Assembly: GCA_023511795.1 (NCBI GenBank)
Contig: JAIMAU010000003.1
Location: 1 to 64,000 of the forward strand
Origin: Armatimonadota bacterium
GTDB taxonomy: Bacteria; Armatimonadota; UBA5829; DTJY01
Direction: 5' to 3'
Length of the DNA: 64,000 nucleotides
The first letter of the stretch is position 1, and the number at the start of each line of letters is the position of its first letter. Under the pieces are notes generated by a model. It was not told the DNA's origin and made no database searches. It worked only from the letters and a program-made list of their open reading frames with translations. Position numbers and translations under genes: made by a program. Below, one piece after another: positions 53,183-59,455 of the stretch.

Positions 53183-54319
53183 ATGTTTCGACCTACAGTT
53201 GCCGAAATTGATTTAGAAGCAATTGCGTTTAATTTTCGACAAGTTCGAAATCTAGTTGGACCAGAAGTAAAGATATGTCCAGCTGTGAAGGCTGACGGCT
53301 ATGGGCACGGTGCAATCCCCGTAAGCCAAGCAGTCCTCAACGCTGGCGCCGAAATGCTAGGAGTAGCCACACTTGAGGAAGCACTTGAACTTCGGAACGC
53401 GGGTATTAATACACCAATACTAATCCTTCAGTGCGTTCTCCCAGACGGAATTCCGGAGATTATTGCACACAATGTGAGCACAATGGTGTGCGATCTTGCA
53501 TTTGCCACTGAGCTCTCAAAATGCGCTGTAGAAGCAGGCAAACGGATGAAGGTCCATATCAAAGTTGACACAGGCATGGGGCGCCTGGGCATTAGTCTAG
53601 CTGAAGCAGTGGAGTTCTCAATCCAACTCTCAGGAATGCCCGGCTTGGAAATCGAAGGAATTTTTACACACTTTCCGTCTTCTGGCGACCCAGATTTAAG
53701 TTTTTCTCATATCCAGATTGAGGAATTCCGACGGCTCACAGACGAAATTCGCAAAGCAGGCATCCATATCCCTCTTCGACATATGGCAAACAGCGCAGCA
53801 ATTTTAAACTTACCCGAGTCATACCTCGACATGGTGCGGCCAGGAATAATGCTATATGGGCTTCACGACACAAAGCACCTTGTCCGCGACGTTGAGCTTC
53901 GGCAAGCGATGACCCTAAAGACCAAAATTGTTTTCCTAAAGGAGCTCCCCCCTGGTAAATCGGTGGGCTATGGCCGAACTTTTATTGCTAAGAGGCGCAC
54001 TCTGGTTGCCACAATTCCCATTGGCTATGCAGATGGATACAACCGGTTGCTTTCAAACCGAGCACCAGCCCTGGTTCATGGAATAAGAGTACCAGTCATC
54101 GGAAGAGTTTGCATGGACCAAGTGATGCTTGACGTAACCGACGTCCCCGGAGTTTCGACGGGCGACGAAGTTGTCCTCTATGGACGGCAGGGAAACGAGT
54201 TTATTTCCATCGAAGAAATTGCCGACCTTCAGGGCACGATTGCAGACGAAGTCATATGCTCTGTCAGCAAGCGCGTCCCAAGGGTATACGTCCATAGGGA
54301 AAACCATCAGACTACCTAA
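53183..54319 (+). CDS. alr: Alanine racemase
   Basis: This 378-residue enzyme makes D-alanine for peptidoglycan. The PLP-binding Lys is in AVKADGYGHGA near the N-terminus and the opposing catalytic Tyr is in SVGYGRTF. MRPGIMLYG-like MVRPGIMLYGL and RVCMDQVMLDV are typical. The start has AAGGA seven bases upstream. The 3' end overlaps the stop of the terminase gene by 4 bp (convergent). Confidence 0.96.
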   Translation: MFRPTVAEIDLEAIAFNFRQVRNLVGPEVKICPAVKADGYGHGAIPVSQAVLNAGAEMLGVATLEEALELRNAGINTPILILQCVLPDGIPEIIAHNVSTMVCDLAFATELSKCAVEAGKRMKVHIKVDTGMGRLGISLAEAVEFSIQLSGMPGLEIEGIFTHFPSSGDPDLSFSHIQIEEFRRLTDEIRKAGIHIPLRHMANSAAILNLPESYLDMVRPGIMLYGLHDTKHLVRDVELRQAMTLKTKIVFLKELPPGKSVGYGRTFIAKRRTLVATIPIGYADGYNRLLSNRAPALVHGIRVPVIGRVCMDQVMLDVTDVPGVSTGDEVVLYGRQGNEFISIEEIADLQGTIADEVICSVSKRVPRVYVHRENHQTT

Positions 54320-55704
54320 TACCACCCTTTCACTGAATCTCTTATCCGACCTGTGGTTAAAAAGTTACCACCAAACAAATATCTCGGTGCAATGCGCAGT
54401 GCAAGCGCTAGGGCGCAGACGCAGTCGTCAGTATATCCCCTCCGTGCGCTAGTTCTCACGTTCCCCGATTCCTTTAGCTCATATTCATAAAACTGGAGCT
54501 CTTGGACGAGATGTTTAATATACGGAAACCGAAGCTCATTATGGGCAAGGCGGACAGCTAAGTTATCAATCAATTCACGCTTGGTCTTATTCGTAAAGAT
54601 TACGCCCTCAAGCTCTGCGTCTAGCCCATGTTCTTCCCAAAGCACATGCCCGAGGTTTTCCAAAAGCGGGTCGCCAATAGAAGACTGGTCCACAGCAATT
54701 CCTCGAACTCCAAACCGGCAAAGTATGTTTGCAATTCGCTTAACCTGCAACTTCCATTCCATGCGGTTGAAATGGTCTAGGGCAACTACGTGGAATCGGT
54801 GGTCGCCATGCCCAACGCCATCTACTGGCGATTGGTAGCCTACAGCCAACACAACCACCGCGGTGTAGTCTGAGTAACGTGCCCAATCAATACCTGCCAC
54901 AAAGGCCGTCGTTTCAAAGTTGATTTGCTCAGTGCAAACAGCCTTTTGAATGTCCTCCCAGGCGAATACTGAATTTTGGTCGTCAATAAACTCTGCTTCA
55001 TATTCAACTTTAAACTGCCGCTCAGTCAATATTTCTCGCTGGTTTTCTATATACTGTCTGCTGATGTATGGGTTTGCCCACGATGGGAAACGGAACGAAC
55101 GATACGAATATCTGGCATTGGAAATCGGATGTTTGCAGTCAGACTCTGCTATTGTTGACTGGTGATTATTTCCTCGGATGAAAGCACGATAAAAATGATT
55201 TTTACCGAAAGGCGTTGATATCAGCGATAATTGGCCATTTCGATCGGCTAGCATTGGCCTAATAACCTCTTCGACTACTTCATCACGCACAAACGCAGCT
55301 TCATCCACCACAACGCGGTCGGCTGAATGGCCTCGGAGATTCCTTCCATCCTCATCAGCTGTCCGAGCCATGATTCTGCTGTTTCGTAGACAAATTTCAG
55401 TATAAGGTGTTCGAGTAATCTTGGTATACTTTCGGGTTTCAGAATGGGAAAGGAGAAGCCGCTCGACCGTCCGCGAAATCAGCTTGCTCTGGTCATAAGT
55501 GGGAGCAACTATCATTTGGATTGAGCCGTTGTTCGAAATAGCATATGTTGCGACATCAATTGCTGCAGCTTCGGTCTTTCCCCAACGTCTCCCACATGCC
55601 GCCACCTTTACTTGATGATTGTCCAATAACCACTCCTTTTGCGTGGGATGGGGCTTCCAACCCCAAAGCAAATCCGCAAGTTTAATCCTCTTCGCCGGAG
55701 TCAT
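54316..55704 (-). CDS. Phage-type terminase large subunit, intact
   Basis: This 462-residue protein has both terminase domains. ATPase: Walker A GRRWGKT (residues 38-44), Walker B RVVVDEAAF and coupling motif ISTPFGKNHF. Nuclease (RNase H-like): GIDWARYSDYTA, VDQSSIGDP and GYTDDCVCALAL give the three expected acidic positions. Such proteins pump and cut DNA into phage heads. The start chosen is ATG 55704, with AGGTGA five bases upstream; it overlaps the small-subunit gene by 23 bp. No portal, capsid or tail gene is in the window, so this is an isolated or domesticated packaging motor, or the edge of a degraded prophage. Confidence 0.88.
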   Translation of the reverse strand: MTPAKRIKLADLLWGWKPHPTQKEWLLDNHQVKVAACGRRWGKTEAAAIDVATYAISNNGSIQMIVAPTYDQSKLISRTVERLLLSHSETRKYTKITRTPYTEICLRNSRIMARTADEDGRNLRGHSADRVVVDEAAFVRDEVVEEVIRPMLADRNGQLSLISTPFGKNHFYRAFIRGNNHQSTIAESDCKHPISNARYSYRSFRFPSWANPYISRQYIENQREILTERQFKVEYEAEFIDDQNSVFAWEDIQKAVCTEQINFETTAFVAGIDWARYSDYTAVVVLAVGYQSPVDGVGHGDHRFHVVALDHFNRMEWKLQVKRIANILCRFGVRGIAVDQSSIGDPLLENLGHVLWEEHGLDAELEGVIFTNKTKRELIDNLAVRLAHNELRFPYIKHLVQELQFYEYELKESGNVRTSARRGYTDDCVCALALALRIAPRYLFGGNFLTTGRIRDSVKGWY

Positions 55705-56074
55705 CATCCTCACCTGATTCTTTAGCCTCAATCTGCCGGAGAATTTGTTCGATTGAATCATTCTCATGGACATCCGCGTCCTTTAAAAGATTGCTTGCCT
55801 TGAGGAGGTCGATAATTGCTTTGTATTTTATTTTTTCATCTTCCGACTTGATGAGGCTTTCGAGTTCACGGGCAGCCTCTACATAACGCTCAGAAAGTAA
55901 CCGAAGTGCCGTACGGCGATTTTCTTTGACATAATCGCATATGGCGTTGGCAAAATCAGGGCTCCTTTTCCACTCATCAAGCATCCTTTTGCTTATTCTC
56001 AACTTCTCGGCAATCTCCTCATCCGTCAACCTAAAAAGCAGGGGGATAGCCCTGCGCTGAATTGCAGTAAGCAT
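55682..56074 (-). CDS. Terminase small-subunit-like HTH protein
   Basis: This 130-residue protein has an N-terminal HTH (LTDEEIAEKLRISKRMLDEWKRSPDF) followed by long helices and an acidic tail (GEDDDSGEED). The layout matches phage terminase small subunits of the HTH type, which recognise the packaging site. The order small then large subunit, with overlap, is the normal phage arrangement, supporting the call. Confidence 0.75.
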   Translation of the reverse strand: MLTAIQRRAIPLLFRLTDEEIAEKLRISKRMLDEWKRSPDFANAICDYVKENRRTALRLLSERYVEAARELESLIKSEDEKIKYKAIIDLLKASNLLKDADVHENDSIEQILRQIEAKESGEDDDSGEED

Positions 56075-56349
56075 ATAATTACCTCTAAATAACAGGGTTT
56101 AGGAATGAATGTTCACTAATTTTCTCAGCATTCGCAAATTGGAACGTTCGCCAAAGCCTTCCCATTATTACAAGACCTCAGCATATGGGAGAATAAAAGA
56201 ACAAAAAGTGAAGATTTCGTGAACCTTTAGTCAGACAGCCGATTAGCAAAAAAGCTTTATTTTTGGTGCTCAAGTTCATTTCTGCGACTGCACACAAACT
56301 AAACAGGGAATATAAATATCGATGACATCAAGCCTGGGAGGATTAAATA

Positions 56350-56701: not shown

Positions 56702-59455
56702 ATGAGCAAAACAGAGGATAGAACTGGGGGAATAGGAATAAAAAACTGGCACGCAATGACCGTTAGTGAGGTATTCGAACACCTAAACAGCTCTCCAGAC
56801 GGTCTATCAACTGCTGAGGCACAGGCAAGGTTAGCAGAATTTGGTCAAAATGAGCTCCCTGAAGCTCCCCGGCCTTCACATTTTACAATCTTTTTAGGCC
56901 AATTTCGAAGCCCTCTAATTTACATTTTGCTTATCGCAGCCTCGTTCTCATTTATCACAAACCATCCTATTGATGGCGGAGTGATAATGGCAGTCCTACT
57001 TCTAAACGCATTTATTGGCTTTTTTCAGGAATACAGGGCTGAACGTGCACTTGAAGCTTTAAAAAAGTTGGGTGCACCTCAAGCAACCGTACTGCGCGAT
57101 GAAGAAGAGATGAACATTCCCACTAGTGAACTTGTGCCTGGTGATGTGATACTTCTCACTACGGGTGAGCGCGTGCCAGCCGACGCCCGGCTTTTCGAAG
57201 CAATGAACTTTAAGGTGGACGAGTCAAACCTAACCGGCGAATCATTTGTGGTTGACAAAAGTGTTGAACCACTTCCTCCAGATACACCTTTAGCAGACCG
57301 AAGGAATATGGTTTATTTAGGAACAACAGTCGTCTATGGTCGAGGCAAAGCAATTATTACCGCCACTGGCGTAAATACCGAAATCGGCCAAATTGCTTTA
57401 AACATAGCAGCCGAGCCGAGGGAATTGACGCCAGTTCAAAAGCACCTTGCAGTTCTCGGGACACACCTCGGAATTTTGGGCATCGTCATCGCTGTAATTA
57501 TCATTGCCGCCGGATTGCTTCAAGCATTTAGCCTCTATGACATATTATTTACTGGCGTTGCAGTAGCCGTGTCGTTTATTCCCGAAGGCTTGCCAGCAGT
57601 GATAACCATTGTCCTCGCCGCAGGTGTACAACGAATGGCACGACGCAACGCACTTATCCGCAAGCTCCCAGCGGTCGAGACTCTGGGGTCTGCAACCGTA
57701 ATCTGTACCGACAAGACAGGCACACTAACAAAGAACGAAATGACAGTTCGTGCGGGCTATACCCCAGAGGAAGCGTTCACAGTCACTGGTGAAGGTTACG
57801 CACCAATTGGCAAGTTTCTCATTGGAGACCAAGAAATTGATAAAAATCACGTAGGGATTAGAAAACTCTTTGAGGCACTAGTATTGTGCAATGACGCACG
57901 GCTTCATCTTGAAGATAACACATGGCGCATTGTTGGCGACCCAACTGAAGGTGCACTTGTGGTTGCGGGCGAGAAGCTTGGACTTCGGAAGCATGAATTA
58001 GAAGATGAGCAAAAGAGAATTGGCGAATTACCATTTGATCCCCAAAAAAGATATATGGCTACACTCCACCTTCTGCCAAATGGACGAAAAATCGTATATA
58101 TAAAGGGCGCTCCTGAAAAAATACTTGCAATGAGTGGAACCTACCTTAAAAACAATGAAGTGCTATTACTCACCTCCGACAAAGCCGCTGAATTTGCGGC
58201 TCGAAATGCCAAGATGACGGAGGAAGCTTTAAGGGTCCTTGCGGCTGCCTATAAAGAACTTCCGTCCGAACAGGAAGCAATTAGTCATTCGGATGTCGAG
58301 TCGGGCCTTGTCTTCCTTGGAGCAGTGGGCATGATGGATCCACCCAGAGAAGAAGCACCCATTGCAGTCAAGCAAGCAAGGGAAGCTGGAATTCGCGTCA
58401 TAATGATAACCGGCGACCATGCAAATACTGCGCGTGCAATAGCGGAATCAACCGGCCTTCTAGACAGAGGGATGAGGGTTGTAGAGGGCACGACGTTGGA
58501 TAAGATGAGCGATGAAGACCTTTCACAAGCGATCGGCCGAATTGCCGTAATTGCACGGGCAGAACCGGAGCACAAACTTCGAATTATTAAAGCATTAAAA
58601 GAGCGCGGTCATATTGTGGCTATGACAGGTGATGGCGTAAATGATGCTCCGGCGCTTAAATGTGCTGACATCGGAATAGCAATGGGAATCAGCGGCACAG
58701 ACGTAGCAAAAGAAGCAGCCGACATGATACTTCTTGATGACAATTTCGCAACAATCGTATCAGCTGTCGAAGAAGGCCGTTCTATATTCGCAAATATTCG
58801 CAAAGTTGTTCAATATTTGCTCTCAACAAACACTGGCGAGGTATTCATATACCTAACTACAATTCTGTCTGGTCTTCCATTACCTTTGTTTCCGGTGCAA
58901 ATTCTTTGGATCAACCTAGTCACTGATGGCTTTTGCACAGCTCCACTGTCGTTTGAACCAAAAGAACCAGGCTTGCTAAAAGAACCGCCTAGAGATCCAA
59001 GGGAGCGCATAGTTAACCGCTACGTGGTTAGCAACATAGTTTTTGTGGCACTTTTCATGCTAATTGGAACCTTCTCGCTTTACTACTGGGGGCTTGGAAA
59101 CATAAGCGTATGGAAAGCGCGAACCTACGCCTTTGTAGTTATGGCGCTTTTCCAAGCATTTAATGCGTTGAACGTTCGATCGAGTCGCTACTCACTGTTC
59201 AAAATTGGCGTGCTAACTAATCCATACTTGCTGGCTGGCGCAACTGCATCTGCAGTTGCCCAGATTGCATCAGTGCATTTACCATTTTTCCAAACAATAT
59301 TTCGCACGATGGCTCTGAACCTATCGGAGTGGGCACTTATGGTAGCGGTTTCTAGCAGTGTATTTGTTGTAGAAGAAGCTAGAAAGGCGTTTCTACCACA
59401 CTTATTCGTGCCCCCACAAACGCGCCGCGCTCCTGGAAGTCAACGCTCCCAGTAG
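56702..59455 (+). CDS. P2A-type cation ATPase (Ca2+-ATPase-like)
   Basis: This 917-residue protein has the SERCA/PacL layout: an N-terminal cation-ATPase domain, TM1-4, a catalytic loop with CTDKTGTLTKNEMTV (phosphorylated Asp), KGAPEKILAMSG (nucleotide domain), GDGVNDAPALKCADIGIAMG (hinge), and TM5-10. Ca2+-site residues of SERCA are kept: PEGLPA in TM4 (Glu), NTGEV in TM5 (Asn, Glu) and NLVTDG in TM6 (Asn, Thr, Asp). It should export Ca2+ or a similar divalent cation. ATG 56702 has AGGA seven bases upstream. It faces tsaE with a 3-bp gap between stops. Confidence 0.94.
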   Translation: MSKTEDRTGGIGIKNWHAMTVSEVFEHLNSSPDGLSTAEAQARLAEFGQNELPEAPRPSHFTIFLGQFRSPLIYILLIAASFSFITNHPIDGGVIMAVLLLNAFIGFFQEYRAERALEALKKLGAPQATVLRDEEEMNIPTSELVPGDVILLTTGERVPADARLFEAMNFKVDESNLTGESFVVDKSVEPLPPDTPLADRRNMVYLGTTVVYGRGKAIITATGVNTEIGQIALNIAAEPRELTPVQKHLAVLGTHLGILGIVIAVIIIAAGLLQAFSLYDILFTGVAVAVSFIPEGLPAVITIVLAAGVQRMARRNALIRKLPAVETLGSATVICTDKTGTLTKNEMTVRAGYTPEEAFTVTGEGYAPIGKFLIGDQEIDKNHVGIRKLFEALVLCNDARLHLEDNTWRIVGDPTEGALVVAGEKLGLRKHELEDEQKRIGELPFDPQKRYMATLHLLPNGRKIVYIKGAPEKILAMSGTYLKNNEVLLLTSDKAAEFAARNAKMTEEALRVLAAAYKELPSEQEAISHSDVESGLVFLGAVGMMDPPREEAPIAVKQAREAGIRVIMITGDHANTARAIAESTGLLDRGMRVVEGTTLDKMSDEDLSQAIGRIAVIARAEPEHKLRIIKALKERGHIVAMTGDGVNDAPALKCADIGIAMGISGTDVAKEAADMILLDDNFATIVSAVEEGRSIFANIRKVVQYLLSTNTGEVFIYLTTILSGLPLPLFPVQILWINLVTDGFCTAPLSFEPKEPGLLKEPPRDPRERIVNRYVVSNIVFVALFMLIGTFSLYYWGLGNISVWKARTYAFVVMALFQAFNALNVRSSRYSLFKIGVLTNPYLLAGATASAVAQIASVHLPFFQTIFRTMALNLSEWALMVAVSSSVFVVEEARKAFLPHLFVPPQTRRAPGSQRSQ

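Follow-up and report, generated by a model that had tools for sequence, protein, structure and literature searches.

A terminase pair beside alr in an Armatimonadota bacterium is likely the packaging half of a dispersed, GTA-like phage head module

Alphaproteobacteria and Brachyspira are the sources of the formally recognised gene transfer agents (GTAs); in other organisms very few GTA-like elements have been described (PMC9662315, PMC12946183). The GTAs RcGTA, CcGTA, BaGTA and BhGTA are built on caudoviricete-derived head and packaging genes that are endogenised, dispersed, vertically inherited and accompanied by lysis genes; the module of Armatimonadota genes analysed here is alike in each of these respects, and likewise no replication or integration genes were recognised beside it. 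In contrast to these GTAs, the module belongs to a different phylum and an unrelated lineage (Mu-type portal, gpT-type capsid protein, MCP), its terminase is split from the portal and capsid genes by up to about 1 Mb, no tail genes were recognised, and transfer has not been shown. Its small terminase subunit (TerS) also keeps an HTH, unlike that of known GTAs (GTA TerS is reviewed in PMC11841831).

The nearest precedent is FpGTA of Faecalibacterium, in which a head and packaging operon lies apart from a second operon, by about 125 kb in one strain; it is further comparable in its particles without visible tails and in its occurrence outside Alphaproteobacteria (PMC12946183). FpGTA, however, has a tail/baseplate and lysis operon, a TerS without an obvious DNA-binding domain, and was found in one genus (PMC12946183), whereas in the Armatimonadota module it is the terminase that stands apart, a tail operon was not seen and the distribution is phylum-wide; the likeness is one of organisation, without sequence comparison. 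Capsid-forming PICIs (cf-PICIs) encode head, portal, protease, terminase and neck, and no tail. The module has the same kind of head, packaging and neck set without a tail, but cf-PICIs are compact, integrase-bearing mobile islands, whereas the parts of the module are scattered and pass vertically with the host, and no integrase was recognised. Mu-like and Mushu-like phages are complete, with tail and lysogeny genes. The module shares their portal (PF06074), MCP (PF10124) and protease families, the MCP of the Faecalibacterium phage FP_Mushu being 41% identical, yet comprises head, neck and lysis genes only. The literature searched yielded no report of a GTA in Armatimonadota, an absence that is not proof.

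The window, a stretch of 64,000 nucleotides, comes from an Armatimonadota MAG of 3.09 Mb in 35 contigs (G000); a sister species of the same genus, g1, and family, f1 (G001), served for comparison. A sequence-only reading had claimed an intact pair of large (TerL) and small terminase subunits at 54316-56074 (-), between alr and a Ca2+-ATPase gene, and this held, both open reading frames being as described (Table 1). In profile searches TerL matched PHROG phrog_2 (E 1.3e-46) and Pfam Terminase_6N (E 2.4e-12). It occurs once in the genome and carries a Walker A motif (CGRRWGKT), a Walker B motif (VVDEAA), an STP motif and the nuclease acids D296/D362/D449-D450, all of whose residues were invariant or almost so when 20 relatives were aligned. 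Codons 1-22 of the TerL frame showed no conservation in aligned relatives, homology beginning near 55707, and for this reason translation probably starts at 55707 rather than at 55773. TerS matched its PHROG profile with E 6.8e-14; the HTH region at its N-terminus shows conservation in the window's class and was kept in 17 of 18 aligned sequences, the exception being N-terminally truncated.

alr and terL meet tail to tail with a 4 bp overlap at the terL 3' end, and the GC content of the terminase pair equals that of its surroundings. No Rfam family was found at the terminase locus, and promoter and terminator matches there were at chance level only. The order alr-TerL-TerS-ATPase recurs in an independent sister species of the genus (locus L020). 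A contig misassembly at 54-56 kb, set beforehand as grounds for refutation, was ruled out because that species shows the identical gene order.

Table 1. Coordinates of the terminase locus, the head cluster and the shared upstream element. Positions are those of the window unless a locus (L) or contig (C) is named.
Feature	Coordinates	Strand	Basis or remark
alr, alanine racemase (host flank, outside module)	53183..54319	+	same layout in sister-species locus L020
terL, terminase large subunit (ATPase and RNase H-like nuclease)	54316..55773	-	profile matches
terS, terminase small subunit, conserved N-terminal HTH	55682..56074	-	phrog_7344 match
69-bp element upstream of terS	56160..56228	-	core at 56166-56203
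Cation (Ca2+-type) P-type ATPase (host flank, outside module)	56702..59455	+	divergent from terS
69-bp element upstream of unlinked portal gene	L051:10057-10125 (G000:C2)		ungapped alignment with terS-side copy
Head cluster (~6 kb): portal, protease, 138-aa virion protein, MCP, p113, p145, p103, p89, p104, M15-peptidase endolysin	G000:C2:333159-339100 = L051:10160-16101		different contig from terminase

The same reading had described the pair as standing without any other phage gene, which is true for the window and false for the genome. When G000 was searched with a relative's portal and capsid proteins, one match to each was returned (62% and 75% identity), both on contig C2, where a head maturation protease lies in the same cluster. 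The other half of the head is thus encoded in the same genome on another contig, and the lone terminase is therefore a displaced part of a set; the distance between the two loci in G000 is at least about 65 kb, a lower bound taken from contig ends. Host housekeeping genes border both loci, those at the head cluster being a Gfo/Idh oxidoreductase gene on one side and a sulfotransferase/CysN region on the other. The portal is of Mu type (PF06074) and the MCP of gpT type (PF10124); the 138-aa virion protein belongs to phrog_1731, the M15 endolysin matched phrog_2649 (E 7e-29), and p89 and p104 are holin-like.

Profile searches found no significant PDB relatives of p145 or p103 by sequence. An AlphaFold model of p103 matched lambda gpFII, SPP1 gp16 and other neck proteins (probability ~1, E 0.007-0.1, TM up to 0.64); p103 accordingly models as a neck stopper, which gives the module a neck. 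The model of p145 gave no fold match, and its designation as adaptor-like rests on gene position alone and is no more than a possibility.

In G000 the portal frame is interrupted by an in-frame TAA (L051:10457-10459) and the MCP frame by an in-frame TGA (L051:12966-12968), both frames being open in G001; TerL and TerS are intact in G000 despite these stops. Stops were also present in TerL of G013 and in the MCP of G015. It may be that the G000 lineage has just lost particle production, or that the MAG consensus is wrong.

A survey of 61 relatives located TerL, portal and MCP. Related Armatimonadota have a short conserved cluster after TerS-TerL, made up of portal, protease, 138-aa protein and MCP genes, then small genes and a gene for a lysis enzyme; the order TerS-TerL-portal-protease-deco-MCP-p145-p103 is contiguous in families f2, f4, f5 and most of f3. 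In the window's family, f1, terminase and portal-MCP lie on different contigs in all four module-bearing genomes, which represent three genera; in f8, TerL is on one contig and a protease-MCP group on another, and two genomes have the portal apart; and in f16 and f31 the order protease-138aa-MCP-(p145)-p103 recurs, and in those cases that were read TerL adjoins the portal at a different site. A p145 profile matched 105 of 291 Armatimonadota genomes and the TerL family profile 134 of 291, each almost always in single copy. At a TerL cut-off of E<=1e-60, 100 of the 105 p145-bearing genomes also had TerL (Fisher p 6e-47). The two genes shared a contig in 33 genomes, in 21 of which they were >=12 kb apart, and on closed chromosomes they were separated by 284 kb (G209), 754 kb (G124), 1.01 Mb (G182) and 1.03 Mb (G181).

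One f1 genome (G002, 99% complete) lacked portal, MCP and p145, its TerL match being no more than a distant one; the module appears to have been lost there, and is therefore dispensable. Separately, the first ~50 codons of the MCP open frame of G024 matched nine other places, on several contigs, with many stops, and are probably a dispersed repeat upstream of the MCP gene.

Phylogenies of 24 genomes placed f1, f2, f4, f5 and f8 each in one clade in the rpoB, TerL and MCP trees alike, and the distance matrices of seven module proteins correlated with that of rpoB (Mantel r 0.78-0.91, all p=0.0001); congruence was judged against this single host gene in these 24 genomes. Between G000 and G001, dN/dS was 0.12 for TerL, 0.14 for TerS, 0.046 for the portal and 0.053 for the MCP; most other module genes lay at 0.03-0.13, with p104 at 0.42; dS was 0.09-0.24 across the module and 0.12-0.26 in most neighbouring host genes, the Ca2+-ATPase standing at 0.47. 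Both halves of the head are inherited vertically with the host, are usually unlinked and are under purifying selection, and the module genes show the pattern of residents rather than of recently acquired phage. As to the rpoB frames themselves, those of genus g9 (L182 = G013:C108; G010) are very long, at about 1920-1970 aa where the window's genome has about 1360, and contain large insertions that split the profile match.

These data bear on the readings proposed at the outset. That the pair is a very recent remnant was not supported: it is conserved in relatives, is under purifying selection at a host-gene rate and tracks the host phylogeny, and the head genes that belong with it have been kept at an unlinked locus. 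Absence from all relatives, which would have refuted domestication, was likewise not borne out, since relatives carry the pair. The interpretation as domesticated and GTA-like was supported and sharpened, and no supporting evidence was found for a defence or satellite role.

A broader form of the remnant hypothesis holds that the terminase pair and head genes are not-yet-lost fragments of an integrated phage in decay. In its favour are the premature stops (G000 portal and MCP, G015 MCP, G013 TerL), the presence of lysis and head genes only, the occurrence of related real prophages in f3 genomes, and the classification of such clusters in Fimbriimonadales MAGs as incomplete prophages (PMC8597652); the latter may be the same kind of element, a resemblance by gene names only. 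Against it, the terminase is intact with dN/dS 0.12-0.14, module dS lies near that of host genes, the module is found in single copy with a host-like phylogeny in about 100 genomes of the phylum, and its unlinked parts are kept together in 100/105 genomes, which would not be expected of neutral remnants. Decaying remnants are thus disfavoured as an unlikely explanation.

No close viral relative emerged: identity of TerL to phage records was at most ~31%, and to IMG/VR at most 39%, except for one 4-kb contig at 55% that carries TerS-TerL-portal. The nearest TerL relatives outside Armatimonadota (35-39%; L015-L018, L204-L208, L215-L216) include Archaeoglobales contigs and IMG/VR viral contigs. 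Lower side-chain carbon content has been reported as a GTA trait; that of TerL was 2.97 in the module versus 3.22 in the viral relatives, a set that is compositionally biased, and the difference was not counted as evidence. At L146 (G006:C68) there is what appears to be a real prophage, equipped with a terminase, a portal and a minor head protein of its own; its MCP is about 51% identical to that of the module, and this prophage could be an extant relative of the ancestral phage.

Within the window's genus, one 69-bp element recurs upstream of terS and upstream of the portal gene. The terS-side and portal-side copies of G000 share 50/69 identities without gaps, around a core of TGTTCTTTTATTnTCC-N8-GAGG-N2-TTGTAATA, and their alignment score was 27 against a shuffled maximum of 11.8 (25 against 13.6 in G001). 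The scan covered 884 kb of the 3.09 Mb of G000; within it the exact core was present solely at the terS and portal upstream sites, the next-best site having 32/50 shared positions, and the exact core also occurs at the corresponding two sites of G001. No comparable upstream element was found in the other split genomes. The element is promoter-like, an inference from sequence alone, and may serve to co-regulate the two loci; its absence from other split genomes means that co-regulation is not shown beyond genus g1.

Three common tail families, the tape-measure families PF10145 and TIGR02675 and the baseplate family PF04865, were searched and are absent from G000; the same three were without a match in G001, G003, G004, G005 (one contig), G012 and most others. 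Matches to PF10145 above the family cut-off were confined to f3 genomes, in which second, unlike terminases point to real prophages. A Baseplate_J-like gene was seen in two closed f16 genomes (L291, L292; G182, G181), far from the head module, and is possibly part of a contractile injection system. Since no tail was recognised, DNA delivery is unexplained; a tail of an unsearched or unrecognised type could still be encoded. Among the neighbours of the two G000 loci, judged by sequence and annotation without a dedicated integrase search, none was recognised as an integrase or replication gene.

An ordinary complete prophage was rejected, as terminase and head are on different contigs and G000 has no PF10145, PF04865 or TIGR02675 match. 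A capsid-forming, PICI-type satellite would make its own heads and steal tails from helper phages. Its genes follow the same plan, with terminase, portal, protease, capsid and neck present and the tail missing, and tails could come from resident prophages, which are present in some f3 genomes. However, the neighbours of the module included nothing recognised as an integrase, primase or regulator, parts up to 1 Mb apart could not be excised as a unit, the module co-diversifies with the host, and most bearers, closed genomes included, lack the tail families tested. A compact mobile island with integrase and att sites was not borne out by unlinked loci that are flanked by host genes, inherited with the host and, short of a dedicated integrase search, without a recognised integrase among their neighbours, and we regard the satellite explanation as very unlikely.

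We consider it likely that TerS-TerL is the packaging half of an ancient phage head that was domesticated by Armatimonadota and is now a vertically inherited, dispersed, head-only and GTA-like viriform; particles, host-DNA packaging and delivery are inferred. In this proposal the terminase and head operons would be switched on together, MCP and protease would build a small head, and TerS-TerL would dock on the portal and fill the head with mainly host DNA, host DNA being proposed because no piece of a dispersed module gains by packaging itself. The neck would then be closed by p145/p103 and the producer cell lysed by p89/p104/endolysin, releasing DNA-filled heads that may have a very short or unrecognised tail, or be tailless with another delivery route; the overall mode of action would be like that of a gene transfer agent. 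Given the portal TAA and the MCP TGA, the G000 strain itself may no longer assemble heads, unless the consensus is wrong.

Alternatively, the heads may have been domesticated for a use other than transfer (DNA storage, altruistic lysis, defence or cargo export), being filled with nothing injected. No recognisable tail was found in G000 or most relatives, yet packaging and neck genes are selected and phylum-wide, and the GTA-like element PBSX is described as not injecting DNA (PMC12946183). On the other hand, an HTH-bearing TerS, a nuclease, a neck stopper and lysis genes, as in the window's class, fit packaging followed by release, and unrecognised tail genes could still exist; we judge non-transfer heads to be unlikely.

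Returning to the GTA-like reading, two of the GTA criteria of Kogay et al. 2022 (PMC9662315) are met: endogenisation over multiple loci, which f1 genomes have on different contigs and which closed genomes show separated by as much as 1.03 Mb, and mostly vertical inheritance with host co-diversification, as indicated by the rpoB/TerL/MCP trees, Mantel r and dS. Caudoviricete derivation was shown for TerL, TerS, portal, protease, MCP and stopper, and none of the three tail families searched was found. Carriage of the whole module set in one head is implausible given dispersal up to 1 Mb, head capacity not being known. As these two criteria are met and packaging and delivery are not shown, the module is labelled GTA-like and not GTA; the data nevertheless raise the possibility of an undescribed kind of gene transfer agent. 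A bolder reading, less likely than not, is that a tailless head and motor were domesticated early in Armatimonadota, have passed down through much of the phylum and now act from unlinked, co-regulated operons, with release of DNA-filled heads for tail-independent DNA transfer or sharing.

If the proposal is true, it would represent an independent domestication at the scale of a phylum, and gene-transfer machinery would be able to persist with its parts scattered over the chromosome. The split module offers a clean test, as terL and the capsid genes lie in different places but descend together and, within one genus, have a promoter-like element in common, and the missing tail raises the matter of how, or whether, the DNA in the heads gets out. 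A caution also follows for annotation: a terminase or capsid gene that stands alone and is labelled prophage debris may belong to a dispersed functional system.
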